Shown here piece by piece: positions 47,609-63,754 of a DNA stretch of 64,000 nt. Source of the DNA: Martinezella rhizogenes (lineage in GTDB: Bacteria > Pseudomonadota > Alphaproteobacteria > Rhizobiales > Rhizobiaceae); the NCBI RefSeq assembly GCF_007002745.1, contig NZ_SGNY01000004.1:372001-436000 (forward strand). The letters run 5' to 3'. The number at the start of each line of letters is the position of its first letter. Within the stretch, counting starts at the first letter, position 1. The translations under genes were made by a program, and so were the position numbers. The notes under the pieces are model-generated. The model was not told the DNA's origin, ran no database searches, and saw only the letters and a list, made by a program, of their open reading frames with translations.

Positions 47609-48312
47609 GCCCGTGCCCTCCGCAGTGGATCGGCACGCATGGAGATATAGGCTCCGAGACCCATGATCAGCAGCGAGAAGAACAGATAAAGCACGGTGGC
47701 GACGAGATAGACTTCAAACGTCCGGAAGCTGAGATTTTCGACTTCCTTGACCGCATGGGTGAGTTCGGGTGCCCCGATCAGAACCCCGAGACTGCTGTTC
47801 TTGAACAGCGAGGTGCTGTGATTGATCAGCGGCGGCAGTGCGTTGCGAACGCCCTGCGGCATGATGACGAAACGCATGGCCGAGACGTAGCTGTGGCCGA
47901 GTGCACGCGCCGCTTCCATCTGACCGGGATTGATGGAGCGCACGCCGGAACGCAGATCTTCACTGAAATAGGCAGCCTGACAGAGGCCGAGGCCGATGAT
48001 GGCGAAGATCGATTCCGCGTTGTGGCTGGACAGCCAGTTCGCCAGCCCGCTTGGCAGCAGTGTGAAAACGCCGAAATACCAGAGCATCAACTGCACCAGT
48101 GTCGGAACGTTACGGTGATAGGAAACATAGGCCGCCACCAGCGGATCACCGAAGCGGAAAGGTGACAGGCGAATGGCAAGCAGCACAATGGCCAGCGACA
48201 TGGCGAGCAGCCATGAGCCGGCATAGATGATGAACGTCATCTGGATGCCATGCAAAAGCATCGAGACATAGTCCGCATTGCTCAGGATTGCCCAAAGGTC
48301 AAAACCGCTCAC
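47605..48312 (-). CDS. ABC transporter permease, GlnP/HisQ type (first)
   Basis: Inner-membrane permease of 235 residues. First segment MLLHGIQMTFIIYAGSWLLA; RNVPTLVQLMLWYF; coupling motif GQMEAARALGHSYVSAMRFV. Forms the heteromeric channel with the following permease. Its ATG overlaps the stop of the SDR gene by 4 bases. Confidence 0.94.
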   Translation of the reverse strand: MSGFDLWAILSNADYVSMLLHGIQMTFIIYAGSWLLAMSLAIVLLAIRLSPFRFGDPLVAAYVSYHRNVPTLVQLMLWYFGVFTLLPSGLANWLSSHNAESIFAIIGLGLCQAAYFSEDLRSGVRSINPGQMEAARALGHSYVSAMRFVIMPQGVRNALPPLINHSTSLFKNSSLGVLIGAPELTHAVKEVENLSFRTFEVYLVATVLYLFFSLLIMGLGAYISMRADPLRRARA

Positions 48313-49112
48313 GCGACTTTTCCTCCGGCTCCGCCCGCCGCGGCTTTATTTTCAGCCGGTCGATTTTCAACCGTCTGGGGCTTGGCCGTCTGCAGCCCGC
48401 CCATGACCTGAAGCGTCGGGGTGATTTCCATATGGCCGATATTCATGGCCACGGGTGCGGCGATGGCAAAGGCGATCGCATCGGCGATATCGGACGCCTG
48501 CGGCAGTTCAAAACCGTCGATGAAGCGCTCGCGAATGCTCGGATCATTGCCGTGCACATGCGTAAATATGTCGGTTGCAACGCGGCCGGGGCAAATTTCC
48601 GTCACCCGCACACGTTTACCGAAAGCATCGATCCGCAGCTGGTTGGACAGCATCGCCACGCCCGCCTTGCTGGCATGATAGATGGAGTTGCCGCCGAAAT
48701 TATAATTACCGGCGATAGAGGAGATGTTGATGACGTGGCCGCGATCACGCGCCACCATGCCCGGCACCACCATGCGGCAGAGATGCAGCACGGCGCGCAG
48801 GTTGACGTCGATCAGGAGATCGATATCACTTTCATCCGCTTCCAGAAATTTCTTCGGACGGTCGACACCGGCATTATTCACGAGAACATCGAACGCGACC
48901 TCGCTGGTGAGCTTTGCAAGAGCAGGCCGGTCAGTCACATCGATGACATGCGCGAAGCAACCCGTGCGCTTCGCCAATTGCTTCAGCGCATCCGCACTTC
49001 TGGCAACCGCATGGACTTCCAGCCCCTCACGGCAAAGCCGCTCGACAACGGCGGCGCCAATTCCGGAAGATGCGCCGGTCACGAGTGCGGTCTTGTAGTC
49101 TGAGAATGGCAT
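48309..49112 (-). CDS. Short-chain dehydrogenase/reductase
   Basis: NAD(P)-dependent SDR of 267 residues. Cofactor motif ALVTGASSGIGAAV at residues 9-22, NNAGVD, catalytic Ser in INISSIAG and the YHASKAG Tyr-Lys pair; class I family. The C-terminal tail is longer and Ala/Lys/Pro-rich. First gene of the operon with the ABC transporter, RraA-like and idnD genes; it likely oxidises the imported hydroxy acid. Confidence 0.9.
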   Translation of the reverse strand: MPFSDYKTALVTGASSGIGAAVVERLCREGLEVHAVARSADALKQLAKRTGCFAHVIDVTDRPALAKLTSEVAFDVLVNNAGVDRPKKFLEADESDIDLLIDVNLRAVLHLCRMVVPGMVARDRGHVINISSIAGNYNFGGNSIYHASKAGVAMLSNQLRIDAFGKRVRVTEICPGRVATDIFTHVHGNDPSIRERFIDGFELPQASDIADAIAFAIAAPVAMNIGHMEITPTLQVMGGLQTAKPQTVENRPAENKAAAGGAGGKVA

Positions 49113-49294: not shown

Positions 49295-50230
49295 CTAAAC
49301 GACCGGCGTCGGCAAGTCTCTCCCCGCAAAATGCGCGTCCAGATTGGCGAGAACCAACGCGCCCATTTCCAGCCGTGTCTCATGGGTGGCGGCGCCGATA
49401 TGCGGCGCGAGGACCACATTGCGCATGCCGAAGAGTGCCTCGGGAACATGCGGTTCATTCTCGAAGACATCGAGGGCCGCACCTTTCAGCCCACCCGCCA
49501 AGAGAATATCGACCAGCGCCTTTTCATCGACAAGCGACCCTCTGGCAACATTGACGAGAACCCCGTCCGGCCCAAGGGCCTCCAGCACCTCTCGGTTGAT
49601 GGCGTGTTTCGTCTCCGGCGTTGCAGCCGCCGCGACGATCAGGACGTCGCAGGCACTCGCGAGCGACACCGCCGTTGGATGATATTCATAAGCCACATCC
49701 TGCTTCTGCCGGCTGAAATAGGAAATCTCCGCGTTAAAAGCTTCCAGCCGCGCCGCAATGGCCCGGCCTATGCGGCCGAGCCCGTAAATGCCGTAACGGC
49801 GCCGCGAGGCCTTGTTGCCGAGCGGCATCTCGCCTCTTTTCCATGCGCCGGACCGGACATGGTGATCGGCGTTGACGAGTTGGCGTAGCAGCATGACGGA
49901 GAGGCCGATGGCGAGATCGGCAACATCCTCAGTCAGCACATCCGGCGTGTTCGTTACCCTGAAGCCGCGTTCGCGGGCCTGATCGAGATCGACCTTGTCG
50001 AAGCCGACGCCGTTGATGGCGACGATTTCAAGAGCCGGCAGGCAGGTGGCGAGTTCAGGGGCAACGCCGATATGGCCGCCGGTGACGACAGCCTTTATCG
50101 ACGCCGCCTCCGCCTGCAAAAATGCCTGCTTGTCGGATATTTCGTGCCAGCGATGGACCCGGAAGCGTTTTTGCAGTTCAGCTTCGATCTGCGGCTGGAG
50201 CGGATAGGTTTGCAGAAGATCGGGCTTCAT
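49295..50230 (-). CDS. D-2-hydroxyacid dehydrogenase (glyoxylate/hydroxypyruvate reductase type)
   Basis: Protein of 311 residues. NAD motif YGIYGLGRIGRAIAARL, then R in VNVARGSLVDEKAL, E in ALDVFENEPHVPE and H in VLAPHIGAATHET: the full Arg-Glu-His set. Shorter, GHRB-like class. Reduces 2-keto acids such as hydroxypyruvate with NAD(P)H. Last gene of the TctABC/DenD operon, 10 bases after the SDR. Confidence 0.9.
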   Translation of the reverse strand: MKPDLLQTYPLQPQIEAELQKRFRVHRWHEISDKQAFLQAEAASIKAVVTGGHIGVAPELATCLPALEIVAINGVGFDKVDLDQARERGFRVTNTPDVLTEDVADLAIGLSVMLLRQLVNADHHVRSGAWKRGEMPLGNKASRRRYGIYGLGRIGRAIAARLEAFNAEISYFSRQKQDVAYEYHPTAVSLASACDVLIVAAAATPETKHAINREVLEALGPDGVLVNVARGSLVDEKALVDILLAGGLKGAALDVFENEPHVPEALFGMRNVVLAPHIGAATHETRLEMGALVLANLDAHFAGRDLPTPVV

Positions 50231-50239
50231 ACGCGCTCC

Positions 50240-50995
50240 TTACCCGCGACCGACGAAAGGCATGCCGCTCGCCATCACGGTCATGGTCAGCACATTCGCC
50301 TCCAGCGGCAGCGAGGCCATATGCACCACGGCTTTGGCGACAATGCCGGCATCGATGGTCGGCTCAATGGCGGTGCTGCCATCAGCCTGCAGCACGCCGG
50401 TGGCCATGGCGCGGGTCATCTCAGTGCTGGCATTACCGATATCGATCTGCCCGCAGGCGATGTTGAACGCCCGACCGTCCAGAGCGGCCGATTTTGTAAG
50501 CCCGGTAATGGCGTGCTTGGTCGAGGTGTAAGGTGCGGACCGCGGACGCGGCGTGGTGGCCGAAATTGAGCCATTATTGATGATGCGCCCGCCCTGGGGT
50601 GACTGCGCCTTCATCTGGCGAAACGCAGCCTGCGTGCAGAGGAAAGCGCCAGTGAGGTTGGCCCCGACCACCGCGTTCCAGGTTTCGAACGACACGTCTT
50701 CGATATGGACCGCCGGTGCCGACATGCCGGCGTTGTTGACCAGAAGATCGAGACGACCGAAACGACCGGTGACCTCGGCGAACAGCCGTTCGACATCGGC
50801 CGGAACGGAAATATCGGCCGTGACGGCCAGAACGCGGTCTCGATGTTCGCGCCATTCGCCGAAAGCGGCGTCCAGAACCTCACGCCGCCGCCCTGTGATC
50901 GCAACGCTGTAACCATCTTCCAGAAGCGCCTCGGCAATCGCCTTGCCGACGCCTGTTCCTCCACCCGTGACGAGTGCGATCTTTCCACCACTCAT
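50240..50995 (-). CDS. Short-chain dehydrogenase/reductase
   Basis: SDR of 251 residues: [49 protein letters not shown]. Cytoplasmic, NAD(P)-dependent. It overlaps the DenD-like gene by 4 bases and precedes the 2-hydroxyacid dehydrogenase, so it should act in the same short pathway, on a hydroxy acid or sugar-acid intermediate. Confidence 0.9.
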
Positions 50996-51978
50996 GCCGT
51001 TTTCCCTTCCAGCTCATCTTCCACATGCGCCTGAATGATTTCGGCGAAGGATGTTTCCGCCCGGAAGCCGAGGGACAGAGCGAGCTGCGGATCGTAATCC
51101 TCGGCCCAGCCGTCGACGATCCGGATGATCCGCTCGTCGGGAACACGCTTGATAAGTGCCACAGCCTTTTCCCCAGCGAAGGCACGCAGAGCCTCGATCT
51201 CGTCGGCAACCGTGGCCGAAAGCCCCGGCATGATGAGATTGCGACGAACGCCAAGCCCGGAAAGATCGACGGTCGCGGCGCGCAGCAGGAAGGCGACGGC
51301 CGAACGCGGGCTGGCGAACCAGTGGCGCACGGTATCAGCAACGGGCAACACCGCTTGCTGGCCCACCAGCGGTTCGCGCAGGATATTGGAGAAGAAGCCG
51401 GAGGCGGCCGCGTTCGGCTTGCCGGGACGGATGCAGATGGTGGGCAAGCGGATGCTGACACCGTCGAAGAAACCACGGCGGCTATAATCCGCGAGCAAAA
51501 GCTCCACGATCGCCTTCTGCGTACCGTAGCTGGTCAGCGGAGCCGTCAGGAACTCATCGCCGATCACCTTCGGGAATGGCGAGCCGAACACGGCGAGCGA
51601 CGAGCAGAACACCACGCGCGGCCGGTATCCGTCCTTCTGATGCTCCAGACGAACGGCTTCGAACAGTGAACGTCCGCCATCGAGATTGATACGATAGCCC
51701 TTCTCGAAATCGGCCTCTGCCTCGCCCGAAACCACGGCGGCGAGATTGAAGATCACATCCGGCCGTTTTGCGATCAGCTTTTCGGCAACACCGGCGTTCG
51801 ACAGATCGCTGCGCTCGAGGGTCACCGTGCCGTCGAAGCCTTTCGGCGCAACCGGCTCGAAAACATCCGTCAGCGTCATTTGGCTGATCTTCACACCGCC
51901 AAGCGTTCCGTCCGCGGTAAGGCGTTGTGTCAATTTACGGCCGATCATTCCGGCCGCGCCGATTATCAGAATATGCAT
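50992..51978 (-). CDS. denD: DenD-like D-erythronate dehydrogenase, extended SDR
   Basis: Extended SDR of 328 residues. NAD motif [17 protein letters not shown] at the N-terminus, then [32 protein letters not shown] with the Tyr-Lys pair. This matches DenD proteins, which oxidise D-erythronate to 2-keto-D-erythronate. The OtnI and OtnC partners of that pathway are not in the window; an RraA-like enzyme, an SDR and a hydroxyacid dehydrogenase are present instead. Confidence 0.83.
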
Positions 51979-52020: not shown

Positions 52021-53532
52021 TCAGTCCTCGTCACCCTGAAACACCACTTCGCGGCGGCGCATGATCGCCGGCATCGCCATCATGATGACGACGATGGCAG
52101 ACAAAGCGAGCAGGGTGGCGCTGATCGGATGGGTGACGAATGTCGAAAAACTACCCTGCGAGATCAGCAGCCCGAGGCGCATGTTCTGTTCCAGAAGCGG
52201 ACCGAGCACGAAGCCCAGCACCAGAGGTGCCGGCTCACAGCCGATCTTGCGCAGGAAGAAGCCAACGATGCCGAAGACCGCGCAGAACAGAACATCGACG
52301 ACGCTGTAGGACAGGCCATAGGCGCCGATGGCGCAGAACATCAAAATGGCGGGGCACAAAAACCGGTAGGGAATGCCGAGAAGGCGAACCCAGATGCCAA
52401 TCAGCGGCAGGTTCAGCACCAGAAGCAAAAGATTGCCGACCCACATGCTGGCGATCAGCCCCCAGAAAAGGTCTGGCCGCGACTGCATGACTTCAGGTCC
52501 CGGTGTAATGCCCTGGATCATCATCGCGCCTACCATCAGCGCCATCAGTCCATTGGCGGGAATGCCGAGCGTCAGAAGCGGAATGAAGGAGGTCTGCGCG
52601 CCGGCATTATTGGCGCTTTCCGGCCCCGCCAGCCCTTCGATTGCGCCCTTGCCAAACCGGGACGGGTCCTTGGCGATCTTGCGTTCCAGCGCATAACTCG
52701 CGAACGAACTCATGATCGCACCACCACCGGGCAGCACGCCGAGGAAAGAGCCGAGCGCGGTACCGCGCAACACGGCGGGAAAGGCCTGTTTGAAATCCTG
52801 CCGGGTCGGCATCAGCGATCCGGTCTTTGCTGCCCCTGCATCCCGCTCCACGCCCTGCTGCAGGTTGAAGAGAATTTCGCTGACGCCGAGAAGCCCGATG
52901 GCAAGCACCACGAAATCGATGCCGTCGAACAGTTCCGCCATGCCGAAGGTAAACCTTTGCTCGCCGGAAGTCGGATCTATGCCGACGAGGCTGAGCGCGA
53001 TACCGAAGGCGATCATGCCGACCGCCTTGACCGGCGATCCGCTCGACAGGAAAACGGCAAACAGCAACCCGAAGATCACCAGACTGAAATAATCGGCCGG
53101 CCCGAAGGCAAGCGCCACGGCCGAAAGCGGCTTTGCGACAACGACGATCAAGACAGTCGCCACCGTGCCGGCAAAAAACGACCCGAGCGCCGCCGTGGCC
53201 AGCGCCACACCCGCCCTGCCCTGCCGGGCCATTGCATAACCATCGATGCAGGTGACGACGGATGAGGATTCGCCCGGCAGGTTGACGAGGATCGCCGTTG
53301 TCGAGCCGCCATATTGCGCGCCATAAAAAATGCCCGCGAGCATGATCAGCGCCGCCGTATCCGGCATCGTATAGGTGATGGGCAGAAGCAGCGCGACGGT
53401 GGCGGAAGGGCCGATGCCCGGCAGGATGCCGATCATCGTGCCGAGTGTGACGCCAAGCAGGCAGTAGAAAAGGTTTACCGGCGTGACGGCCACACCGAAA
53501 CCGAGGATGATATTGGAAAGAAGATCGGTCAT
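52021..53532 (-). CDS. tctA: Tripartite tricarboxylate transporter, large permease TctA
   Basis: Membrane protein of 503 residues. Has the family repeats GTMIGILPGIGPSATVALLL and LGSFLGVLPGGGAIMSSFAS, plus the ligand loop FYGAQYGGSTTAILVNLPG. Around 11-12 membrane segments. Works with TctB and the periplasmic TctC to import carboxylates with sodium or protons. ATGA overlap with the tctB stop. Confidence 0.95.
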   Translation of the reverse strand: MTDLLSNIILGFGVAVTPVNLFYCLLGVTLGTMIGILPGIGPSATVALLLPITYTMPDTAALIMLAGIFYGAQYGGSTTAILVNLPGESSSVVTCIDGYAMARQGRAGVALATAALGSFFAGTVATVLIVVVAKPLSAVALAFGPADYFSLVIFGLLFAVFLSSGSPVKAVGMIAFGIALSLVGIDPTSGEQRFTFGMAELFDGIDFVVLAIGLLGVSEILFNLQQGVERDAGAAKTGSLMPTRQDFKQAFPAVLRGTALGSFLGVLPGGGAIMSSFASYALERKIAKDPSRFGKGAIEGLAGPESANNAGAQTSFIPLLTLGIPANGLMALMVGAMMIQGITPGPEVMQSRPDLFWGLIASMWVGNLLLLVLNLPLIGIWVRLLGIPYRFLCPAILMFCAIGAYGLSYSVVDVLFCAVFGIVGFFLRKIGCEPAPLVLGFVLGPLLEQNMRLGLLISQGSFSTFVTHPISATLLALSAIVVIMMAMPAIMRRREVVFQGDED

Positions 53533-53981
53533 GGCAGCAGCGGTATCCTCTGTCCGAGGCCGACAACGAAAATGAGGATGCAGGCAAGGATGAGCACTGC
53601 CGAAAGTAGCAGAACTTCAACCGGCCGGATCCTGCCATAGGCGATGCAGGCGAGCACGATCAGTACGAAAGCGGCGGCAATGAAGCCCAATGGCTCGATC
53701 AGCAGCGCAAAACCGACAATGCCGGCGACCGCCAGAAACGGACGCATTTTCGGCGCCACCCAGGCTTCGGACGGTGTCTTCCCCAGTAAATCCTGCAAAA
53801 GCAGCGCGATGCCGAGTGCGAACATCAAAGCCGCGATCACCGTCGGCATATAGCCGGGTCCGGGCTGGAAATTAGTGCCCATGCTCAGCGGCCGCGCGCC
53901 GTAATAAAGCCCCGCGGCGGCCACCAGAAAGAAAGCCCCGGACAGAATATTCGCCGTCAGTTTCGAGCCGTGTTCGGCCAT
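53529..53981 (-). CDS. tctB: Tripartite tricarboxylate transporter, small permease TctB
   Basis: Protein of 150 residues with four membrane segments (LSGAFFLVAAAGLYYGARPL, MPTVIAALMFALGIALLL, FLAVAGIVGFALLI, VLLLSAVLILACILIFVVGL). The GPGYMPTVIA stretch is typical of TctB. The ATG at 53981 has GGAGGGGAG upstream; a longer frame extends to 54071. Confidence 0.9.
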   Translation of the reverse strand: MAEHGSKLTANILSGAFFLVAAAGLYYGARPLSMGTNFQPGPGYMPTVIAALMFALGIALLLQDLLGKTPSEAWVAPKMRPFLAVAGIVGFALLIEPLGFIAAAFVLIVLACIAYGRIRPVEVLLLSAVLILACILIFVVGLGQRIPLLP

Positions 53982-54054
53982 GATTATCTCCCCTCCATAT
54001 TGAGAAATACGCCGCGCCTCCCGACACGGCGTATTCAGATGCCGGATTGCTGGC

Positions 54055-54723
54055 TCAGTCGGCCCAGACACATCCCTTCGAGCGCATCATTTCGTAGCGA
54101 TCCTCGATATCCATCTTGCCCTGACGGTGCAGTTCCATCATGTGGTTCTCGTGATCGTCGCGCTCCCGGCAGGCCTTGACGAGTTTCGAGATATCGCTCT
54201 CGCGAACGACGACAACGCCGTCATCATCGCCGCAGACGATATCGCCGGGGCTGATCAATTCGCCGCCCACCACGACCGGATGGTTGATGGTGCCGAGCGT
54301 GTCCTTTGAGGTGCCCTTCATGCAAAGGCCGAGTGAGAAAACCGGGAAACCGATCTCGCGCAGACCCTTTCCATCACGCACGGCGGCGCTGACCACGAAG
54401 CCGACAATGCCCTTGCCGATGCAGGCGGCAGCCAGCACATCGCCGAAGCCGCCCTGATTGGGGTTGTCACCGCCATCAATCACCAGCACGTCACCGGGCT
54501 TTGCCAGATTGATGGCCTCGAAAATCATCAGATTGTCGCCGATGTGGCATTTCGCGGTGATCGCCGGGCCACAAATTTTCAGGCCCGGCTTGATCGGCTT
54601 GATACGATAATCGAGAGCGCCGAGCTTGCCCTGCGCCTCATGAATAGTGGCGGGGCTGAACTTGCTGATCGCCTCGATATCGGCCTTGGAAGGGCGCTGG
54701 AAATTGCGGATGACATGGGCCAT
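54055..54723 (-). CDS. RraA-like aldolase/decarboxylase (HMG aldolase family), copy 2
   Basis: Protein of 222 residues, clear paralogue of the one at 44391-45065: KFSPATIHEAQGKLGALDYR, KPGDVLVIDGGDNPNQGGFG, SAAVRDGKGLREIGFPVFSL. The Arg-Asp pair is kept. Lies between the tctC and tctB genes, which is an unusual place and suggests the imported acid is its substrate or close to it. The ATG at 54723 is favoured by AAGGAACC upstream. Confidence 0.85.
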   Translation of the reverse strand: MAHVIRNFQRPSKADIEAISKFSPATIHEAQGKLGALDYRIKPIKPGLKICGPAITAKCHIGDNLMIFEAINLAKPGDVLVIDGGDNPNQGGFGDVLAAACIGKGIVGFVVSAAVRDGKGLREIGFPVFSLGLCMKGTSKDTLGTINHPVVVGGELISPGDIVCGDDDGVVVVRESDISKLVKACRERDDHENHMMELHRQGKMDIEDRYEMMRSKGCVWAD

Positions 54724-54815
54724 TGGCCTGGTTCCTTTCAACAGTGGGTCATAGCCGGGCCGCAGACCGGCCCAAGCGTTATTTGTTGGGGCGAGAAGCG
54801 GTCGGTACCGGCCGC

Positions 54816-55769
54816 TTATTTTGTCCAGGGCTTGCTTTTCCAGAGCTCGGCCAGATTGGCGTTGCCCTTCTTGAGCGCCTCGGCAAATTCGACCTGGGTC
54901 AGCGGCAGCGTGGTCAGTTCGCGCTTCTTGGCGTCGGCAAGATAATCCGGGTCCTTCAGCGCCTTCTGGAAGGCATCGACCAACTTTGCCTCCACATCCG
55001 CCGGCAGACCTTTCGGCGCTCCGAAACCGGCAAGCAGGCTGAACTGAACATCGTAGCCGGCTTCCTTGAAGGTCGGCACGTCAGGCGAGAGCGGCGAGCG
55101 CTCAGTACCTGATGTGGCCAGTACACGAAGTGCGCCAGAACGATTGTCGGCAAAAACCTCGTTGAGGTTCATGAAACCGAGCGTGACGTGGTTGCCAAGC
55201 ATGGCGAGCCTTGCCGGTCCGCCGCCATTGAAGGGCACGAAGTTCAGCTTCACGCCCGCCGCATCTTCAAACAGCAGAGCAGTGATCTGGCTCGGATGAC
55301 CGATGCCGGTCACGCCGACGACGACCGGGTTCGCCTTGGCCGCCTCGACGAATTCCCTGGCGGTCTTGATCGGCGACACCTTGTTGACCGTCAGCGCCAG
55401 ATCGCCGCCGATCTGGTTTGCGAGCGGGGTGAAGGCATCCTCCTTGTAGCTGGCATTGCCCTGCACGATCGGCGAATACATGGACGGAAAATTCAGCGCA
55501 CCGATGGTGTAGCCATCAGGCTTGGCATTGGCGATATAGGTTGCGCCGATCAGCCCGCCGGCACCTTCGCGGTTTTCCACCACGACCGATGTGCCGAGAT
55601 ATTTTTCAAGATAAGGCACCAGCGCCCGCGACTGGATATCGGTACCGCCGCCGGCGGGATAACCGATGACCAGCGTCACCGGCCGCTCCGGATATTCCGC
55701 AGCCGCCCCTCCTGCAGCAAGGATTCCCGCAGCCGCCAGCACGCCAAACAGAGATGTCTTCAAACGCAT
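54816..55769 (-). CDS. tctC: Tripartite tricarboxylate transporter binding protein TctC
   Basis: Periplasmic protein of 317 residues (Bug family). Signal peptide MRLKTSLFGVLAAAGILAAG cleaved after AAA; then EYPERPVTLVIGYPAGGGTDIQS and VVENREGAGGLIGATYIANA, the usual Bug N-terminus. Bug proteins bind carboxylates through water-mediated contacts, so the acid cannot be named. First gene of the TctCBA/DenD operon; GGAGGAAA stands before the ATG. Confidence 0.94.
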   Translation of the reverse strand: MRLKTSLFGVLAAAGILAAGGAAAEYPERPVTLVIGYPAGGGTDIQSRALVPYLEKYLGTSVVVENREGAGGLIGATYIANAKPDGYTIGALNFPSMYSPIVQGNASYKEDAFTPLANQIGGDLALTVNKVSPIKTAREFVEAAKANPVVVGVTGIGHPSQITALLFEDAAGVKLNFVPFNGGGPARLAMLGNHVTLGFMNLNEVFADNRSGALRVLATSGTERSPLSPDVPTFKEAGYDVQFSLLAGFGAPKGLPADVEAKLVDAFQKALKDPDYLADAKKRELTTLPLTQVEFAEALKKGNANLAELWKSKPWTK

Positions 55770-55863
55770 ATCTTTTCCTCCCCGATACGCTTTCACCGGG
55801 GAGGCTAGGAACAAGCCATCAACAACACAAATACCGAGTTTTCAAACTACCCATACAAATCTT

Positions 55864-56751
55864 TTATGGGTTGAAAGAAGGTTCGCGCCTTGCGACCGAC
55901 CGCAGCAGGTCCCGAAACAGCCTGAAGGTGCGCTCATCCACCTCCCTGCCCTTCAGCAGATGGATGGAGCGATAAATAACCGGATCGGTTATATGCGCGG
56001 CCTGAAGCTGGCCGGCCTCCTGCTCCTGCTGAACCGAATTCCATGACAGGATCGTCGCACCGATGCCGGCGCCTACGGCCCGTTTGATCGTATCCTGCCC
56101 GTCTATCTCCATCGTCACATTCAGCCCAATACCGGCACGGGCAGCGGCCTCGTCTATCGATGCGCGCAGCGGATTATCTCTCGGCGGCAGGATCAGATTG
56201 AGCTTAGCCGCGGCCTCAAGCGGCATCGACCGGCCGAGTGGCCTTGAGGAAACTGCAAACAAGCTTTCCTTGACGATGAGATCGTCGGCCTTCTCTTCCG
56301 CACCGACAAGCGCAACCGCCATATCCACCTTGCCGAGACGAATGAGGCGCAGCGATTCATCATTGCGTGCCTCTATCAGCCGCAGCGAAACCTTGGGCAT
56401 CGAAGCGGCAACCTCGCTGATGATGCTTGGTGCAAAGGCCGTGGCCCAGGAAGGGATGAGGCTCAGCCGGATCACCCGCTCATCCAGATAGGCCATGGCG
56501 CGAATTTCCGCCTCCGCCTGCCTTACCTTCTCGGTGATCTCGCGTGCATGGGCGAGAAGCACTTCACCCTTCTCCGTCGCCTTCACGCCACGCGCCAGCC
56601 GGTGCAGCACGGGAAAACCCACCAGCCGTTCGAGTTCCGTGATGTGGTGGCTGAGCGCCGGCTGGGCTATCCCCAACTGCCGCGCCGCAGCCGACATTGA
56701 GCCGCAATCGGCAATCGCGACCAGATATCGCAGCCTGCGCAAATCCAACAT
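55864..56751 (-). CDS. LysR-family transcriptional regulator
   Basis: Regulator of 295 residues. N-terminal winged helix LDLRRLRYLVAIADCGSMSA, ARQLGIAQPALSHHITELER, HRLARGVKATEKG; C-terminal LysR substrate domain. It is on the same strand 94 bases upstream of tctC, so it likely activates that operon in response to the acid. ATG at 56751 with GGTGGAAGCG upstream. Confidence 0.92.
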   Translation of the reverse strand: MLDLRRLRYLVAIADCGSMSAAARQLGIAQPALSHHITELERLVGFPVLHRLARGVKATEKGEVLLAHAREITEKVRQAEAEIRAMAYLDERVIRLSLIPSWATAFAPSIISEVAASMPKVSLRLIEARNDESLRLIRLGKVDMAVALVGAEEKADDLIVKESLFAVSSRPLGRSMPLEAAAKLNLILPPRDNPLRASIDEAAARAGIGLNVTMEIDGQDTIKRAVGAGIGATILSWNSVQQEQEAGQLQAAHITDPVIYRSIHLLKGREVDERTFRLFRDLLRSVARREPSFNP

Positions 56752-56949
56752 GCCCGCTTCCACCTCCCGCCGGTTCACGAGGTGATCATGACACCAAATT
56801 GCCGCCGTGACCTAGGGCAAAAAGCCCTTTTCCGCGAAAGGTGGGCAATGGGGCAAGTGATGGGGTAAGACAAGATTCTTATGACAGCCGGCTAAGGCTT
56901 TTCTCCGCTTCTTTCCCATGACACGGTCCTGGCTGCGATGGGGAGCGGG

Positions 56950-57861
56950 ATGGATCCTAAGACCGGTATTTTGCTCAAGCTGACGGCCATGCTGGCATTC
57001 ACAGTCATGTCCGCCTGTGTGAAGGGCCTGGACGGGGCGATCCCGGTGGGCGAAGTCGTTTTCTGTCGGGGATTTTTTGCCCTCATTCCCCTCTGTCTCT
57101 GGTTCATCGCATCGTCCGAGCGGATAACCATCCCGGCCCGGAAAAACATCGGCAGCCTGCTCGCGGGCAGCTCGGCCGGGCTTGGCGGCATGTTCTTCGG
57201 CTTTCTGGCGCTCGCTTATCTGCCGCTGGTGAATGTGACCGTGCTGAGCTACACGACGCCGCTTTTCACCATCATGCTGGCAGCGCTGCTCTTGCGCGAA
57301 AAGGTGCGGGTTTTCCGCTGGTCCGCCGTGCTCACCGGCTTCATCGGCGTCTTTATCACCTTATCACCCAATCTGGTCTTGGATACCGCATCAGGCCGGA
57401 TCGATGGCGTTGCAATGATCGGAACCGCACTGGCGCTGACCGGTGCGCTTTGCGCCGCCTTTTCCTCCATCGCCGTCCGTCACCTGAACAGCATCGAAAA
57501 GCCGTCACGCATCGTGCTCATCTATACGCTGACGGGAGTTGTCGCCGGCTTCACCACGATCATATTTGGATGGAAAATGCCGGATTTTCACCAGTTCCTG
57601 CTGCTCGCCGGCAGCGGTCTCGCCGGCGGCATCGGCCAGATTACCATGACGCTCAGCCTGCGGCATGCCCAGGCCTCGCTGCTGGCGCCTTTCGATTATA
57701 CGACGATGATCTGGGCGATCGCCCTCGGTTATCTCTTCATGGCCGAAGTTCCGACTGGCGCAACCATCGTCGGCGCACTGACAGTCATTGCTGCCGGACT
57801 GTTCGCCATGTGGCGCGAAAGCCGGCTGGCGAAACAACCCATCAGGGAGCCGAGAGCGTAA
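56950..57861 (+). CDS. EamA/DMT-family transporter, copy 1
   Basis: Inner-membrane protein of 303 residues, about 10 segments in two EamA halves (GILLKLTAMLAFTVMSACVK, VGEVVFCRGFFALIPLCLWF, then LPLVNVTVLSYTTPLFTIML). The second half ends SLRHAQASLLAPFDYTTMIW. Probably exports an amino acid or metabolite. The ATG at 56950 has GGGGAG; its stop lies 20 bases inside the end of the convergent paralogue. Confidence 0.9.
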   Translation: MDPKTGILLKLTAMLAFTVMSACVKGLDGAIPVGEVVFCRGFFALIPLCLWFIASSERITIPARKNIGSLLAGSSAGLGGMFFGFLALAYLPLVNVTVLSYTTPLFTIMLAALLLREKVRVFRWSAVLTGFIGVFITLSPNLVLDTASGRIDGVAMIGTALALTGALCAAFSSIAVRHLNSIEKPSRIVLIYTLTGVVAGFTTIIFGWKMPDFHQFLLLAGSGLAGGIGQITMTLSLRHAQASLLAPFDYTTMIWAIALGYLFMAEVPTGATIVGALTVIAAGLFAMWRESRLAKQPIREPRA

Positions 57862-58768
57862 GCTCATCGGTGATACGCTTTTTATGCAGCCGCCTTTCCC
57901 GCCATAACGTGAACAAACCGGCAGCAACCACGATCGACGCCCCCATAATGGTGGTGAGCGCCGGCACCTGATCCATGAAGGTGTAACCGATCAACAGCGC
58001 CCAGATCATCGTCGTATAATCGAACGGCGCCAGCAGCGACGCCTCCGCATAGCGCAAGCTGAGCGTTACCAATATCTGCGCGGTTCCGCCGATGAGACCG
58101 GTGCCGATCAGCAGTGCCCATTGCCACGCGGTCGGCATTGTCCAGCCCATGCCGATGCTCGCAAAACCGATGACGGTGGTGAGCAGGGTGAAATAGAAGA
58201 TGATCGCGCCGGTATTTTCCGTCTGCGTCAGATGCCGGATTTGGATCATCGATATTGCGGAGAAAAAAGCCGCGGCGAGCCCAAAAAGACCGCCGAGCAT
58301 GGCAACGCGGGTGCCAGAAGTGATATCCGCAACATCGAAGGAAAAATGTGGCGACAGGATCAGCACGATGCCGCAAAGCCCGAAGACCACCGCGGTCCAG
58401 CGGTACATCCTGACGACTTCCTTCAAAAGCAGCATCGCCAGAATGACCGTGAAGAGCGGTGTCGCGTAGCTGATGGCCGTAGCATCGGCGAGCGGAATAT
58501 AGGCCAGCGCCAGATAGCTGAAAACCATGCCGCCGGTGCCGGAGAAACTCCGCACCAGATGCCCGCCAATGTGGCTTGTGGCCACCTGCCTCCGGAAACC
58601 GCCCTGCGAAGCCATCCACAGACAGAGCGGCAGCATGGCCACCGCCGACCTGAAAAAGACGACCTGGCCGATGGGGATCTCGCCCTTGAGACCGCTGATA
58701 CAGGCGCCCATCAACACCAGAGCAAGTGCTGCGGAGATTTTAAGGAGAATGCCTTTGCGGGGTTCCAT
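57842..58768 (-). CDS. EamA/DMT-family transporter, copy 2
   Basis: Inner-membrane protein of 308 residues closely resembling its convergent neighbour: GILLKISAALALVLMGACIS, IGQVVFFRSAVAMLPLCLWM, SLRYAEASLLAPFDYTTMIW. The two genes are tail to tail and share 20 bases at their 3' ends. Start at 58768 with AAGGAACG upstream. Confidence 0.9.
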   Translation of the reverse strand: MEPRKGILLKISAALALVLMGACISGLKGEIPIGQVVFFRSAVAMLPLCLWMASQGGFRRQVATSHIGGHLVRSFSGTGGMVFSYLALAYIPLADATAISYATPLFTVILAMLLLKEVVRMYRWTAVVFGLCGIVLILSPHFSFDVADITSGTRVAMLGGLFGLAAAFFSAISMIQIRHLTQTENTGAIIFYFTLLTTVIGFASIGMGWTMPTAWQWALLIGTGLIGGTAQILVTLSLRYAEASLLAPFDYTTMIWALLIGYTFMDQVPALTTIMGASIVVAAGLFTLWRERRLHKKRITDELTLSAP

Positions 58769-58963
58769 GGTTCGTTCCTTCGGACGTCTTTGAACCGTTT
58801 CACCACGCAAAGGCTGGATATCAAACCTCAAAGCAGTGTCCATAGGAACTTCGTCTGACCCCATTAATGCTGCCCACATGGTAGCTATTGCTGATGGACA
58901 GGCTGCGGATTCCGCTCCGTTTGCCCGTCGCCGTGGGGATACAAAAAGACGTTGGAAACCAAT

Positions 58964-59428
58964 ATGGATCTGGAAAAGATCAAGAAACTGATCGAGTTTG
59001 TCGGCTCTTCGCGAGTGTCCGAATTGACCGTGAGCCAGGAGGGAACCACGGTCCGGATCATTCGTGAAAACAGCGCCGTTTCACTGCAATCGCCATCCCC
59101 GCAGCCCCAGCCTGTTCCGGTGGCGCAAACAGCATCCGAGACACCGCGCGCCGAAGAACAGGCGCCGGCCTCCACCGTCACCGCTCCGGTACCATCCGGC
59201 ATCGTCGCAGCGCCCTCATTCGGTCTTTTCCATCGCGCGCCAAGCCCCGGCACGCCGCCTTTCGTCGAAGCCGGCGATGAGGTCAGGCATGGACAGGAAC
59301 TCTTCATCATCGAAGCAATGAAGGTGTTCAACACCGTGAGAGCCGAGCGCAGCGGCAGGATCGCCAGATTCATTGCCAATGACGGCGAAGATGTCGAACT
59401 CGGACAGCCGGTGCTGGAGTTCGAATGA
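58964..59428 (+). CDS. accB: Biotin carboxyl carrier protein
   Basis: Protein of 154 residues. An N-terminal helix ([20 protein letters not shown]), a Pro/Ala-rich linker (about 45-80), and a biotinyl domain with the lysine in [18 protein letters not shown] near residue 118. MKV instead of MKM is allowed for biotinylation. Lies first in a six-gene operon with accC and 5-oxoprolinase-type genes, so it probably serves a separate carboxylase and not the main acetyl-CoA carboxylase. The stop overlaps the accC ATG as ATGA. Confidence 0.9.
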
Positions 59429-60819
59429 TGAACGCGTCACTCCCAAAGGCAGCGGCCGAACAAAGAGCATTCGACAGTGTCCTTATCGCCAATCGTGGCG
59501 AGATCGCACTGCGCGTGCAACGCGCCTGCCGCGAACTCGGCCTGAAGACCGTCATGGTCTATTCGGAAGCCGATAAGGACGCAGATTATCTGAAGGCGGC
59601 CGACACCGCCATCTGCATCGGCCCCGCCTCTCCCGGCCAGAGCTATCTCAACGCGCCGGCCATATTGCTCGCAATGGAGCTGACCGGCGCTGGCGCGGTT
59701 CACCCCGGTTATGGTTTTCTATCCGAAAGAGCGTCTTTTTCGGAGGCCGTGGAGGCGGCGGGAGCGGTCTTCATCGGCCCACGCGCCGACGCCATCCGCA
59801 CCATGGGTGACAAGATCGCAGCGAAGCGGGCGATGATGGAGGCTGGCGTGCCCTGCGTTCCGGGCCCCGATTCCGCCCTGCCGGATGACATGGCCGAAGT
59901 CTCGAAAATCGCCGCCGACATCGGTTATCCCGTCATCGTCAAGGCGGCCGGCGGCGGCGGTGGGCGCGGCATGCGCGTCGTTCGAGAGGCTTCCGCCCTT
60001 CAGGATGCCGTTCTCGTCACCCGCGAGGAAGCAAGCCGTGCTTTCGGAACGCCGGAACTCTATATCGAGAAATTCCTCGAACATCCGCGTCATGTCGAAA
60101 TTCAGGTTCTCTGCGATGGCCAGGGCGGCGGCGTCTGGGTGGGGCTGCGCGACTGCTCGATGCAGCGCCGGCACCAGAAGGTCGTTGAAGAAGGCCCTGC
60201 CATCGGCATCCCGCCTGATGTGGCCGCTTTCGTCGGCAATCGCTGCGTCGAAGCCTGCCGCCAGATCGGTTATCGCGGCGTCGGTACCTTCGAGTTTCTT
60301 TATGAAAACGGTGAATTCTATTTCATCGAAATGAATACCCGCCTGCAGGTCGAACATCCGGTCACGGAAATGACGTCAGGTGTGGATCTGGTGCGCCAGC
60401 AGCTTCTCGTCGCTCTTGGCCATCCGCTCGAGATTTCGCAGGAAGACATCACCTGCGAAGGGCATTCGATCGAATGCCGCATCAATGCCGAAGACCCCTA
60501 TAATTTCATTCCCTGCCCCGGTCTGATAACGGCCCTTCACCTGCCGGGCGGCCCCGGCGTGCGGGTCGATACCCATGTGACGGCGGGTTATCGGGTTTCG
60601 CCCCACTACGATTCCCTGATCGCCAAGCTCATCGTCCACGCGCCGACGCGCGAACAGGCGATTCTGCGCATGCGCCGCGCGCTTGGCGAAATGCGCATCG
60701 AAGGCGTCTCCACCAACCTGCCGCTACATCGGGAAATATTGGACGACCCGGCCTTCTCCGAAGGCGGCACGGATATTCACTACCTCGAACATTGGCTTGC
60801 AGCGCGGAGTGCCCAGTGA
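59425..60819 (+). CDS. accC: Biotin carboxylase
   Basis: Protein of 464 residues. N-terminal [20 protein letters not shown], the ATP-grasp glycine loop [14 protein letters not shown], the [10 protein letters not shown] stretch and the catalytic [17 protein letters not shown]. Complete active site. It carboxylates the biotin on the AccB partner using bicarbonate and ATP. Overlaps both neighbours (ATGA and GTGA). Confidence 0.94.
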
Positions 60820-61256
60820 AACGACAGCCTGTTTCCATATCCCGCTACAGCAAGCCCGGCACGATTGCCGATCTTGCCGCTCACCTCGAGCGCAACAACG
60901 TCTCCGCCATCGAGATCGAGACCCCCGATGGGTCACTGAAGATCGTTGCCATGGCAGGCGGTCAGGCCTCTGCGGCACAGCAGCCCATTGAAGCGACCAA
61001 AGCGCCGGTAAAGGCGGGGGATATTCTTGCCCGTGCACCGATGGCCGGCATCTTCACAGCCGCCCATCCGCAGCGCCCAGACCGGGCGGTTCAGGCAGGA
61101 CAATCCGTAGCGAAAGGCGAGATCGTCGCATTCATCGCGGCTGGACCCGTGCTTGTTCCGGTCATCGCCGAAAAAGCCGGCACCGTCAGCGAAATCGTGG
61201 CGGAAACTGGTGTGCTTGTCGGCTATGGCTCCACCCTTCTCAAGACCGAAACATGA
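60816..61256 (+). CDS. Biotin-carrier-like protein without the biotin lysine
   Basis: Protein of 146 residues built like AccB: an N-terminal helix ([20 protein letters not shown]) then a biotinyl-type barrel starting [20 protein letters not shown]. Where AccB has EAMKM this protein has [17 protein letters not shown], so no lysine stands at the modification site. The start is GTG, overlapping the accC stop as GTGA. It may be a scaffold for the carboxylase and the PxpBC subunits. The frame is intact. Confidence 0.82.
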
Positions 61257-61966
61257 TGGTGACGTCGATGAGCAACCTCCCGCTGAAAACGCCCCACCTC
61301 ACCCCCGCCCATCTGGGCCTGCCGAAAATCTCGATGATAGGCAACAGGACCTTTCTGATCGAAGCGCCCGGCGAGCTGGACCTGCCCGCCCAGCGGCGTA
61401 TCTGGGCGCTGACGCGTGCGCTGAAAGATCGTCCCGAGGTGCTGGAACTCATACCCGGCATGACCAACCTGCTGATCGTGCTGCGCGGTACGCCTGAAGA
61501 TGCCGGGCATCTGCAGGACGAGCTTCTCGACCTCTGGCAAAGGACGGCGGAGCTCGATCTTCTCGGCAAGACCATCGAAGTGCCCACGACCTATGGCGGC
61601 GAACACGCCATCGACCTTGCGGCGATCTGCGATTATTCCGGCCTACCCGATAAGGAGGTCGTGCGCCTTCACTTCGAGCGCACCTATACGGTTTTCGCCG
61701 TCGGCAGCGCGCCCGGTTTCGGTTATCTCGGCGGTCTCGATCCACGCATTTTCATGCCGCGCAAGAAAGTCCCTTCGCTGCGCATGCTGAAGGGCATGGT
61801 GACGATCGGCGGCATGCAGTCCGGCATCTCGGTTCTGACCGGGCCAAACGGCTGGAATTCGCTGGGTTTCACCGAAATCACCATGTTCGACGCCACGGCC
61901 GAACAGCCAGCTGTGCTGGCGCCCGGCGACCGGGTTCGCTTCCTTCCCGAAAGGATCGAACTATGA
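61253..61966 (+). CDS. pxpB: PxpB/KipI-family subunit (5-oxoprolinase-type)
   Basis: Protein of 237 residues of the KipI/PxpB family. The core SAPGFGYLGGLDPRIFMPRK is conserved, but the next motif, usually PRxxVPAGSVGIGGxQTGIY, reads MLKGMVTIGGMQSGIS here and the end is LTGPNGWNSLGFT. This marks a divergent branch. With PxpC it forms the subunit pair that activates and opens the lactam with ATP in 5-oxoprolinase. ATG overlaps the preceding stop, and its stop overlaps pxpC. Confidence 0.85.
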   Translation: MMVTSMSNLPLKTPHLTPAHLGLPKISMIGNRTFLIEAPGELDLPAQRRIWALTRALKDRPEVLELIPGMTNLLIVLRGTPEDAGHLQDELLDLWQRTAELDLLGKTIEVPTTYGGEHAIDLAAICDYSGLPDKEVVRLHFERTYTVFAVGSAPGFGYLGGLDPRIFMPRKKVPSLRMLKGMVTIGGMQSGISVLTGPNGWNSLGFTEITMFDATAEQPAVLAPGDRVRFLPERIEL

Positions 61967-62961
61967 TCCATATTCTTGCCTGCGGACCGCTGAACACAGT
62001 GCAGGATCTCGGCCGCGCGGGTTACCGCAATATCGGCATCACCGCCACGGGCGCGATGGACCCGATTGCGCTCAGGGTCGGCAATCTTCTCGCCGGCAAC
62101 GGCGAAGAGGCCGCGGCGATTGAAATCCAGACCTTTCCTTTCCGCATCGAATTCGAAGAGGCGCTGACCTTCGCGGTAACCGGCGCGGATTGCGCTGCAC
62201 GGCTCGATGGTGCGGATTTACCGCCTTACTGGTGTGTGCGGGCCGAGAAGGGTCAAATCCTCGAGCTTTCGACCCCGCTGAAAAATGCGCGGGCCTATCT
62301 CTGCCTTCAGGGCGGCGTCGATGTTCCGGTGGTGATGGGATCGCGCAGCACTTCTCTTCGCGGCTCATTCGGCGGTCACGAAGGACGGCATCTCACCACT
62401 GGCGACAGGTTGCCCGTTCTGCCATCCGAGTCACTCGCTCTGCCTGCAAGCGGCCTTGGCCTTACGCCGCTTGCAGAAGCGATGCCGGACATGTTTCCGG
62501 TGTCCGACACCGGCGAATTGCTGCTGAGAGCCATTCCAGCCGCCGAACATGATCTTTTCGGCGACAACGCCGAACGTTTCTGGTCGGAAGCCTGGAAAAT
62601 CACCTCACAGAGCGACCGCACCGGTTACCGGCTGGCCGGAACACCGCTGACCCTTTCGGCTCCCGTGGAACTACGTTCCTATGGCGTCATCCCGGGCGTG
62701 GTTCAGGTGCCGCCAAGTGGCGAGCCGATCATCCAGATGAGCGACGCCAACACGGCCGGCGGTTATCCCAAGATGGCCGGCATCATCGACAGTGACCTGT
62801 GGCGTCTCGGCCAGGCCCGCATCGGCAGCCGCATCCGCTTCGTGCAGGCAACGGTACGGGAGGCGCTGGAGATCGAGAAGGCGATCGACGCCTATTTCGC
62901 GGATATCCGCAGAACCCTGCCGCTGGTTACCGCCGCACTCGGCACGCTGACAAAACGATAA
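61963..62961 (+). CDS. pxpC: PxpC/KipA-family subunit (biotin-dependent carboxyltransferase-like)
   Basis: Protein of 332 residues. N-terminal GPLNTVQDLGRAGYRNIGIT and TGAMDPIALRVGNLLAGN, then GGVDVPVVMGSRSTSLRGSF, SDRTGYRLAGTPL and IQMSDANTAGGYPKMAGIID. All main family motifs (AHS2) are well kept, unlike those of the PxpA and PxpB partners. Coupled to pxpB by ATGA. Confidence 0.9.
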   Translation: MIHILACGPLNTVQDLGRAGYRNIGITATGAMDPIALRVGNLLAGNGEEAAAIEIQTFPFRIEFEEALTFAVTGADCAARLDGADLPPYWCVRAEKGQILELSTPLKNARAYLCLQGGVDVPVVMGSRSTSLRGSFGGHEGRHLTTGDRLPVLPSESLALPASGLGLTPLAEAMPDMFPVSDTGELLLRAIPAAEHDLFGDNAERFWSEAWKITSQSDRTGYRLAGTPLTLSAPVELRSYGVIPGVVQVPPSGEPIIQMSDANTAGGYPKMAGIIDSDLWRLGQARIGSRIRFVQATVREALEIEKAIDAYFADIRRTLPLVTAALGTLTKR

Positions 62962-62986
62962 TCCTGAAGAACAAGGAGAGGGAACC

Positions 62987-63754
62987 ATGAAGATCGATGT
63001 TAATTCCGACATGGGCGAAGGTTTCGGCGTCTATAAGGTCTGCGACGACGAGAAGCTTATGGAAGTCGTCTCTTCGGCGAATGTCGCCTGCGGTTTCCAT
63101 GCCGGCGATCCGGAAATGATGGCGCGCATGGTGCGTCTGGCCAAACAGAACGGCGTCGGCGTCGGCGCCCATCCCGGCCTCGCCGACCGTCTCGGCTTCG
63201 GCCGCCGCGAAATTCCCGTCGACGCGGAAGAAATGGAACAGCAGGTTCTCTACCAGCTCGGCGCGCTTTCGGCGATTGCCAGGGCGCAGGAGGTTGCGCT
63301 CTCCCATATCAGCTTCCATGCCGCCATGGGCAACATGATCAATCGCGATGCGGCGCTTGCCGAACGGATCATGAAAAAGATCAGGGCGGTCGATCCCAAT
63401 CTCATCGTCTTTTCGATGCCGGACATGCTGATCGAAAAGGCGGCGCTGGATTGCGGGCTAAAAGTGCTCAATCTCTTCCTCGCCGACCGCGCCTATGATG
63501 TGAAGGGCCAGCTCGTGCCACGCAAGCTGCCCAATTCCGTCATCAAGGAAGAGGGAAAAGTTCGCGCGCGGGTGCGCCAGTTTCTGGAAAAAGGCACGGT
63601 CACGACCATCGAGGGCGAGATCATTCCCGTTCGCGCCCGGTCGATCCTTGTTCACAGCGACACACCCGGCTCGCTGGAGCTTGCCCGCACGGTGCGTAGC
63701 GAAGTGGAAGCCTGCGGCGGCAGCGTCGTGCCGGCTCGCGAAGTGATCGCCTGA
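62987..63754 (+). CDS. pxpA: PxpA/LamB-YcsF family protein, divergent
   Basis: Protein of 255 residues. N-terminus DVNSDMGEGFGVYKVCDDEK and SANVACGFHAGDPEMMARMV are those of LamB/YcsF. The central motif, normally HVKPHGALYN, reads HISFHAAMGNMINRD here: the Lys-Pro and Gly are lost. The later ADRAYDVKGQLVPRKLPNSV matches. In 5-oxoprolinase PxpA is the subunit that opens the ring, so a changed active site suggests another substrate. GGAGAGGG before the ATG; last gene of the operon. Confidence 0.85.
   Translation: MKIDVNSDMGEGFGVYKVCDDEKLMEVVSSANVACGFHAGDPEMMARMVRLAKQNGVGVGAHPGLADRLGFGRREIPVDAEEMEQQVLYQLGALSAIARAQEVALSHISFHAAMGNMINRDAALAERIMKKIRAVDPNLIVFSMPDMLIEKAALDCGLKVLNLFLADRAYDVKGQLVPRKLPNSVIKEEGKVRARVRQFLEKGTVTTIEGEIIPVRARSILVHSDTPGSLELARTVRSEVEACGGSVVPAREVIA

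Follow-up and report, generated by a model that had tools for sequence, protein, structure and literature searches.

Our comparative analysis of a 64,000-nucleotide stretch of Martinezella rhizogenes DNA (contig NZ_SGNY01000004.1, positions 372,001 to 436,000; hereafter the window, whose own numbering is used) suggests that six packed genes on its forward strand (58964-63754) on balance encode a biotin-coupled enzyme of the Pxp type, which would open the ring of a cyclic amide other than 5-oxoproline. The operon is composed as follows.

58964-59428, forward strand: BCCP, biotin carboxyl carrier protein, with EAMK at residue 117 (TIGR00531, 117.8 bits, cut-off 115.2)
59425-60819, forward strand: biotin carboxylase (BC), AccC-like (NF006367 and TIGR00514 above cut-off; family motifs found)
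60816-61256, forward strand: BCCPx, BCCP paralogue without the biotin lysine (Biotin_lipoyl, 32.1 bits; alignment with BCCP of relatives)
61253-61966, forward strand: PxpB, carboxyltransferase subdomains C/D, with Ser152 and Ser175 (CT_C_D; TIGR00370 above cut-off; column counts)
61963-62961, forward strand: PxpC, carboxyltransferase subdomains A/B (CT_A_B; TIGR00724 above cut-off, NF045499 below; model matches 5dud, 5i8i and 3mml)
62987-63754, forward strand: variant PxpA (LamB/YcsF) with S109, A112, L163 and L221 (Pfam, alignment, AlphaFold model, fold match with 2dfa and 1v6t)

The junctions from BCCP through PxpC are four 4-base overlaps (in order ATGA, GTGA, ATGA and ATGA) and a spacer of 25 bases separates PxpC from PxpA, which agrees with the six overlapping or nearly overlapping genes of a preliminary description made from the sequence alone; its word "fused" was wrong, the genes being separate and closely packed. 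In gene order the Pfam domains are Biotin_lipoyl; CPSase_L_D2 with Biotin_carb_N and Biotin_carb_C; Biotin_lipoyl; CT_C_D; CT_A_B; and LamB_YcsF. By Pfam and NCBI models, homologues of PxpA, PxpB and PxpC are encoded together, as in PxpABC, and the BC, the EAMK-bearing BCCP and the CT_A_B/CT_C_D carboxyltransferase make up the part list of a urea-carboxylase-type enzyme. The sequence motifs of the operon's BC are presumably catalytic. Pfam found no AccA/AccD-type carboxyltransferase among the six operon genes, and no genome-wide search for one was made. A scan for promoters and terminators gave counts under the shuffled means.

The variant PxpA is a conserved subfamily. Residues 107-116 of the window protein read HISFHAAMGN, the departure from the family motif that the preliminary description had pointed out, and the pattern H[IFVL][SG]FHAAMGN was read in all 80 relatives of an 80-locus set; the closest relatives, at 98% identity, are those of Agrobacterium genomosp. 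13, A. leguminum and A. tumefaciens B6. An alignment of 214 PxpA sequences, taken from the 80-locus set and from genomes of the order, family and phylum, comprised 97 variant, 9 N-type and 108 K-type rows, with seven sequences left out (the second copies L111 and L112, which are too short, and L261, L262, L270, L274 and L291, in which the start was not found); the filler stretch L079 was unused. Position 109 is Lys in 108/214 rows and Ser, Gly or Asn in 106/214. Glu163 accompanies Lys109 in 108/108 rows and occurs in 0/106 non-Lys rows, which carry Leu (101), Ile (2), Thr (1), Val (1) or Ser (1), while position 221 is Leu in 106/106 non-Lys rows and Cys in 107/108 Lys rows. The window PxpA lacks Cys221 and has Ser109 and Leu163 where the K-type rows (108/108) hold the Lys-Glu pair; the preliminary description had not noted the changes at 163 and 221. 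The motif was misread in L272 and a few other rows; once aligned, Lys109 never occurs without Glu163. We infer that the loss of Lys109 and Glu163, putative defining residues of 5-oxoprolinase activity, marks a change of substrate.

The core of the protein is retained. Thirteen of the 17 core positions counted (N6, D8, E11, H38, H62, D67, R73, Q90, H111, D167, Y170, H223 and D225) are identical in 214/214 rows. In the AlphaFold model of PxpA (mean pLDDT 90.3) residue 109 lies just after strand 105-108 and residue 163 inside strand 159-165, and the model shares its fold with 2dfa and 1v6t (Z 33); a match with CE4 deacetylases (Z about 13) was taken as shared fold only. A tree of 145 of the 214 rows, built quickly without the motif columns and supported by the Shimodaira-Hasegawa-like approximate likelihood ratio test (SH-aLRT) with no bootstrap, recovers the 37 true non-Lys rows as a single clade with an SH-aLRT of 97. 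This clade divides into a nine-row GALGN-type/N-type group (support 86) and a 28-row FHAAMGN group that includes the window (support 100); a second apparent motif change in this tree is the misread L272. The N-type is an intermediate group: these proteins (L088-L095 and L099; HVNPHGALGN and similar) lack Lys109 and Glu163, keep Gly112 and are about 47-53% identical to the window PxpA, and rows L095 and L317 represent one place.

PxpB is changed as well. The loss of the VPAGSVGIGG form, noted in the preliminary description, was confirmed, with KGMVTIGG standing at 180 and IPAGSVALAG in the other PxpB of the same genome. The changes at positions 152 and 175 are more telling than this stretch: in columns counted over 96 variant and 80 K-type rows (55 without and 25 with BC), position 152 is Ser in 95/96 variant rows (one gap) and Phe in 80/80 K-type rows, and position 175 is Ser in 96/96 and Arg in 72/80, respectively. 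PxpC, earlier called normal, deserves the word for its fold (41% identity to E. coli YbgK over 290 residues, Z 32.9) and not for its score, which at 290.4 bits misses the cut-off of 500 of the NCBI equivalog NF045499. The PxpC model also matches the urea amidolyase of Kluyveromyces lactis (KlUA) with a Z of 28.4, and PxpB and PxpC are, as judged from sequence and model, related to the carboxyltransferase of urea carboxylase.

The conserved surroundings of the variant operon, which the preliminary description did not mention, point to a catabolic pathway. Among the 80 variant loci, read with flanks of 9 kb, an aminotransferase was found in 77, a short-chain dehydrogenase/reductase (SDR) in 76, a LysR/NAC-type regulator in 77, a transporter of some kind in 78 and a BC in 74; among 113 other PxpA loci, read with flanks of about 7 kb and at looser thresholds, an aminotransferase was found in 2 and an SDR in 0, and N-type loci showed them in 8/9 and 5/9. 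An RraA-like aldolase lies nearby in 82/97 variant rows, 7/9 N-type rows and 9/113 others, eight of the last nine matches being at 27-35% identity and one (L097) at 66%. Five RraA-like proteins were scanned with NF006731 (4-carboxy-4-hydroxy-2-oxoadipate aldolase/oxaloacetate decarboxylase, cut-off 179), the window gene at 44397-45065 standing outside the scan; three passed (window 54055-54741, 203.2; L089, 228.4; L093, 228.4) and two fell below (L090, 129.4; L099, 146.4). A second Pxp operon of the same genome (G000:C4:508702-513216; L061 7682-12631) encodes a KPHG PxpA, a D-glutamate cyclase, a fused PxpB-PxpC and a BC in an open frame of 638 amino acids. The proposal of the preliminary description that the substrate is other than 5-oxoproline is thus supported by the loss of the Lys-Glu pair, by the separate KPHG operon with D-glutamate cyclase and by the aminotransferase, SDR and aldolase of the surroundings.

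Based on family membership and motifs, the proposed enzyme would work in three steps. Biotin carboxylase would charge the biotin of BCCP with a carboxyl group at the expense of ATP and bicarbonate; PxpB-PxpC, as homologues of the urea carboxylase carboxyltransferase, would use carboxybiotin to activate the ring amide; and the variant PxpA, a barrel hydrolase with the 13 family-invariant residues, would open the ring with loss of the carbamate. The aspartate-type aminotransferase might then transaminate the opened amino acid, and the RraA-like aldolase might split the resulting oxo acid to give pyruvate; no place in this route is assigned to the SDR. An aminotransferase followed by a pyruvate aldolase suggests 4-hydroxy-, possibly 4-substituted, glutamate as the opened product. 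A tentative and doubtful candidate for the substrate is a lactam of 4-hydroxy, 4-substituted glutamate (4-hydroxy-5-oxoproline type); such a substituted ring would be compatible with the replacement of the charged pair by small and apolar side chains. An alternative is an aspartate derivative, with decarboxylation of oxaloacetate.

The carrier paralogue BCCPx, not recognised in the preliminary description, aligns with the BCCP of the same operon, N-terminal part included, and reads AAGPVLVPV at 108 in place of EAMKVFN; a GPxLxPV-like stretch recurs as the replacement of EAMK in the aligned BCCPx copies. By Pfam and alignment it is a BCCP-like protein without the biotin lysine and recalls the BADC proteins of plants, biotin-less BCCP relatives in acetyl-CoA carboxylase, which likewise are paralogues without this lysine beside a true BCCP. 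A simple search revealed BCCPx in 74/80 loci, with EAMK in none of the 74, and a profile search in 95/97 variant rows. It is accounted for in 97/97 when the two exceptions are followed up: L116 (Winslowiella) has BCCPx on the same contig about 2 kb outside the fetched stretch, and L107 (R. rhizogenes OV677) has it in a separate cluster, L315. In other PxpA types the profile found it in 8/9 N-type, 6/19 KAHG, 2/10 KLHG, 1/25 KPHG rows with BC and 0/43 KPHG rows without BC. In L124, L130, L271 (by profile) and L116, BCCPx adjoins PxpBCA with no dedicated BC or BCCP nearby, and this retention fits an adaptor that recruits a shared carboxylase; BCCPx is probably a structural adaptor, which would dock the carboxylase and the carboxyltransferase.

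The preliminary description had tied the variant PxpA motif to accBC, and this link did not survive. The phylogeny of PxpA with and without KPHG against the presence of accBC (the 145-row tree) united the non-Lys rows, and BC was not specific to their clade: it lies nearby in 26 Lys-type and 28 non-Lys rows, with 79 Lys-type rows having none. No fewer than three PxpA lineages have BC as a companion: the non-Lys clade and two that retain KPHG (YVKPHGALYN and HIKPHG-type). Three variant-bearing enterobacterial genomes have only one AccC. From the second operon of the window's genome, biotin coupling may extend to the true 5-oxoprolinase. The HIKPHG-type loci L062, L063, L275, L276, L277 and L279 hold a BC and a short carrier reading EVMK, and PxpB of the three aligned (L062, L063 and L275) carries Lys at the general-base position of urea carboxylase. 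In the variant set no BC was found in the fetched stretches of L107, L116, L124, L128, L130 and L162, the last being a short contig. The set of the L107 genome is split and complete, with PxpA apart and BCCP, BC, BCCPx, PxpB and PxpC together at L315. Erwinia typographi (L128) has a BCCP-BC pair elsewhere (L316) beside LysR and ABC permease genes, which may or may not serve its Pxp system.

Several observations weigh against the proposed biotin-coupled enzyme. Lys1605 of urea carboxylase is named as the likely general base in the excerpt of PMC5770610, and the equivalent residue in the window PxpB, aligned with KlUA, is Arg170; the same column is Arg in 55/55 K-type rows without BC and Arg (18), Lys (6) or Gly (1) in the 25 with BC. 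Furthermore, the Arg that Ser175 replaces is kept in 4/4 urea carboxylases aligned. PxpB and PxpC are reported to hydrolyse ATP themselves (excerpt of PMC8453981), and biotin would therefore be unnecessary in ordinary Pxp systems; together with Arg170 this counts against carboxyl transfer. Activation by way of phosphate or carboxyphosphate may occur instead; such routes are considered for OplAB and CapAB in excerpts of PMC11033972 and PMC8453981. The partner of the PxpBC homologues in PDB 9yx5 is, by the available part of that entry, a long-chain acyl-CoA carboxylase, and the binding of PxpBC may therefore be regulatory. The idea that the variant motif equals accBC was dropped, BC adjoining K-type PxpA too. 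The genomes of L116, L124 and L130 have the variant PxpBCA with BCCPx and a single AccC of about 460 amino acids each, and the clade PxpA of L107 and L092 stands alone in the stretch read. Finally, the neighbour counts are not independent, the 80 loci being mostly from Rhizobiaceae and at least 10 of the 17 further variant rows possibly repeating a listed locus; Fisher tests, which disregard relatedness and include one locus twice, were therefore set aside.

The idea of the preliminary description that BC and PxpBC form one complex is supported in part, through gene packing, the conserved neighbourhood and, as far as the entry was available, the mycobacterial carboxylase with PxpBC homologues in PDB 9yx5. 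Rather unlikely, in our judgment, is that PxpBC use ATP directly and phosphorylate the ring amide, while BC, BCCP and BCCPx regulate the complex or are regulated by it. Phosphorylation of 5-oxoproline by PxpBC is assumed in an excerpt of PMC13274462, the ATP hydrolysis in that of PMC8453981 is in keeping with it, and most K-type loci have no BC nearby (79 rows without against 26 with BC); a whole BC-BCCP pair would, however, be costly as mere regulation, and BC recurs beside PxpA in three or more lineages.

That the operon encodes a second ordinary 5-oxoprolinase, which turns 5-oxoproline into glutamate and whose residue changes are drift, is unlikely. NCBI names three of the subunits 5-oxoprolinase, two subfamily models accept the window PxpA, PxpB exceeds the cut-off of its equivalog TIGR00370, and the fold is retained with the 13 core residues of PxpA. 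Nevertheless, PxpA scores under the cut-offs of its three matched equivalogs NF003812, NF003813 and NF003815 (195.9, 219.7 and 234.8 against 378, 392 and 337) and PxpC under its own, the otherwise constant Lys-Glu pair is gone in 106/106 rows, few of the 113 other loci have an aminotransferase, SDR or aldolase nearby, and the KPHG operon with D-glutamate cyclase is present in the same genome.

It is very unlikely that accBC is a spare half of acetyl-CoA carboxylase, placed in the operon by chance and serving fatty acid synthesis. BCCP and BC do exceed acetyl-CoA carboxylase equivalog cut-offs, but the 4-base overlaps continue to PxpC, BC lies near the variant PxpA in 74/80 loci, the pair remains with BCCPx, PxpB and PxpC at L315 though PxpA has moved, and another AccC (452 amino acids, 54% identical to the operon BC) is found elsewhere in the genome. 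Equally improbable is a split urea-carboxylase-like enzyme limited to N-carboxylation (of urea, guanidine or a small amide), in which PxpA would serve as scaffold or act as the following hydrolase. The same parts are present (BC, BCCP, CT_A_B and CT_C_D) and the PxpC model resembles K. lactis urea amidolyase, but Lys1605 is changed to Arg and a further Arg to Ser, PxpA keeps its 13 invariant residues, and an aminotransferase with a pyruvate aldolase would, by reasoning, not suit urea or guanidine. Urea and allophanate were set aside as substrates, given that PxpB has Arg for Lys and that genes for an aminotransferase, an SDR and an aldolase lie nearby. Slightly less likely still is BCCPx as a decaying BCCP duplicate with no role of its own, for which the absence of EAMK from 74/74 copies would speak, since the gene is kept in 97/97 variant rows (L116 flank and L107 split cluster counted) and beside 8/9 N-type and some K[AL]HG rows, and the same replacement sequence recurs in the aligned copies.

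Compared with the prokaryotic 5-oxoprolinase PxpABC of E. coli, B. subtilis and C. glutamicum, the window operon shares the three families, the fold and the 13 PxpA core residues; in contrast, its PxpA has lost Lys109, Glu163 and Cys221 and its PxpB the Phe and the Arg, it has a dedicated BC, BCCP and BCCPx, and it lies among other neighbouring genes. With the urea carboxylase/urea amidolyase of K. lactis it has in common BC, BCCP and carboxyltransferase subdomains A/B and C/D, whereas in the window operon each subunit has its own gene, allophanate hydrolase is replaced by a LamB/YcsF protein, and Arg occupies the Lys1605 position. LamA of Aspergillus nidulans, of the lamA/lamB system of lactam utilisation, presumably resembles urea carboxylase. 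YcsF, a PxpA, is related to lamB and to 2-pyrrolidinone use in an excerpt of PMC3412718, a fungal case likened here by description only. Likened by description only as well are the OplAB and CapAB lactamases, for which ATP- and bicarbonate-dependent lactam opening is described (excerpts of PMC8453981 and PMC11033972); CapAB is called not similar to PxpABC in the former excerpt. The long-chain acyl-CoA carboxylase of M. smegmatis with MSMEG_0435-0436 (PDB 9yx5, available part) resembles the window operon in joining PxpBC homologues to a biotin carboxylase complex; it differs in being actinobacterial, and no PxpA of this entry was among the matches listed. For Lactiplantibacillus pentosus, the excerpt of PMC12427679 gives an extra BCCP/BC pair and pxpB/pxpC as separate facts.

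The matches listed in our literature searches (20 of 977 in one list) included no description of the operon or of BC-Pxp coupling, and they do not cover Niehaus 2017, reportedly the founding PxpABC paper. The use of ATP by PxpABC is unsettled in the literature (excerpt of PMC13274462), and a clade with its own biotin carboxylase lets the role of carboxybiotin be asked directly. If the biotin-coupled reading is true, databases mislabel a carboxylase-lactamase as plain 5-oxoprolinase, for example in Allorhizobium ampelinum, whose conjugative plasmid pAtS4e carries the whole island in one annotated stretch. The conserved pathway points to a nutrient that may come from plants, and the biotin-less BCCP is a candidate assembly factor that lends itself to testing. 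A wider generalisation, which we consider improbable, would be that Pxp lactam opening is generally biotin-driven, with PxpBC borrowing or owning BC and BCCP; the variant clade would then act on plant-derived 4-hydroxy-4-substituted 5-oxoprolines, the biotin-less BCCP would recruit a dedicated or a housekeeping carboxylase, and a transaminase-aldolase route would lead to pyruvate.

Upstream of the operon the window holds the following neighbours, and an aminotransferase, a further SDR and a LysR gene lie about 4 to 7 kb beyond the window end.

44397-45065 (matched stretch), reverse strand: RraA-like aldolase (by tblastn, 67% to an aldolase of L089 lying close to its PxpA operon; conserved neighbour in relatives)
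45163-45996 (matched stretch), reverse strand: solute-binding protein (82% to a conserved neighbour of family SBP_bac_3)
46089-48312, reverse strand: ABC transporter ATPase (46089-46853) and permeases (46850-47608 and 47605-48312) (79-83% to conserved neighbours; Pfam for the ATPase and 47605-48312)
48309-49112, reverse strand: SDR oxidoreductase (83% to a conserved neighbour)
49298-51978: 2-hydroxyacid dehydrogenase, SDR and D-erythronate dehydrogenase (the last at 350.5 bits against a cut-off of 325), separating the SDR/ABC module from TctA
52021-54071, reverse strand: TctA and TctB transporter genes, a possible part only
54055-54741, reverse strand: second RraA-like gene, a possible part (the NF006731 match given above)
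54816-55814, reverse strand: TctC solute-binding protein, a possible part
55864-56778, reverse strand: LysR-type regulator, a possible part (label from reading the sequence)
57842-58879, reverse strand: EamA-type transporter (so labelled by inspection of its sequence; 21/80 loci have a relative of at least 50% identity in the vicinity of PxpA)

Two different RraA-like genes are thus present in the window, one beside the ABC transporter (44397-45065) and one beside TctABC (54055-54741).

Variant PxpA proteins 67-71% identical to that of the window were also seen in Enterobacterales (L116, L124, L127-L130, L132 and L137) and Rhodobacterales (L121 and L125). Among 601 plasmid records with a PxpA match, 162 match PxpA at 60% or more, and Klebsiella accounts for 98 of the 601. 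The identity of 67-71% across distant orders, together with the 162 plasmid records, suggests that the variant system has moved between lineages.

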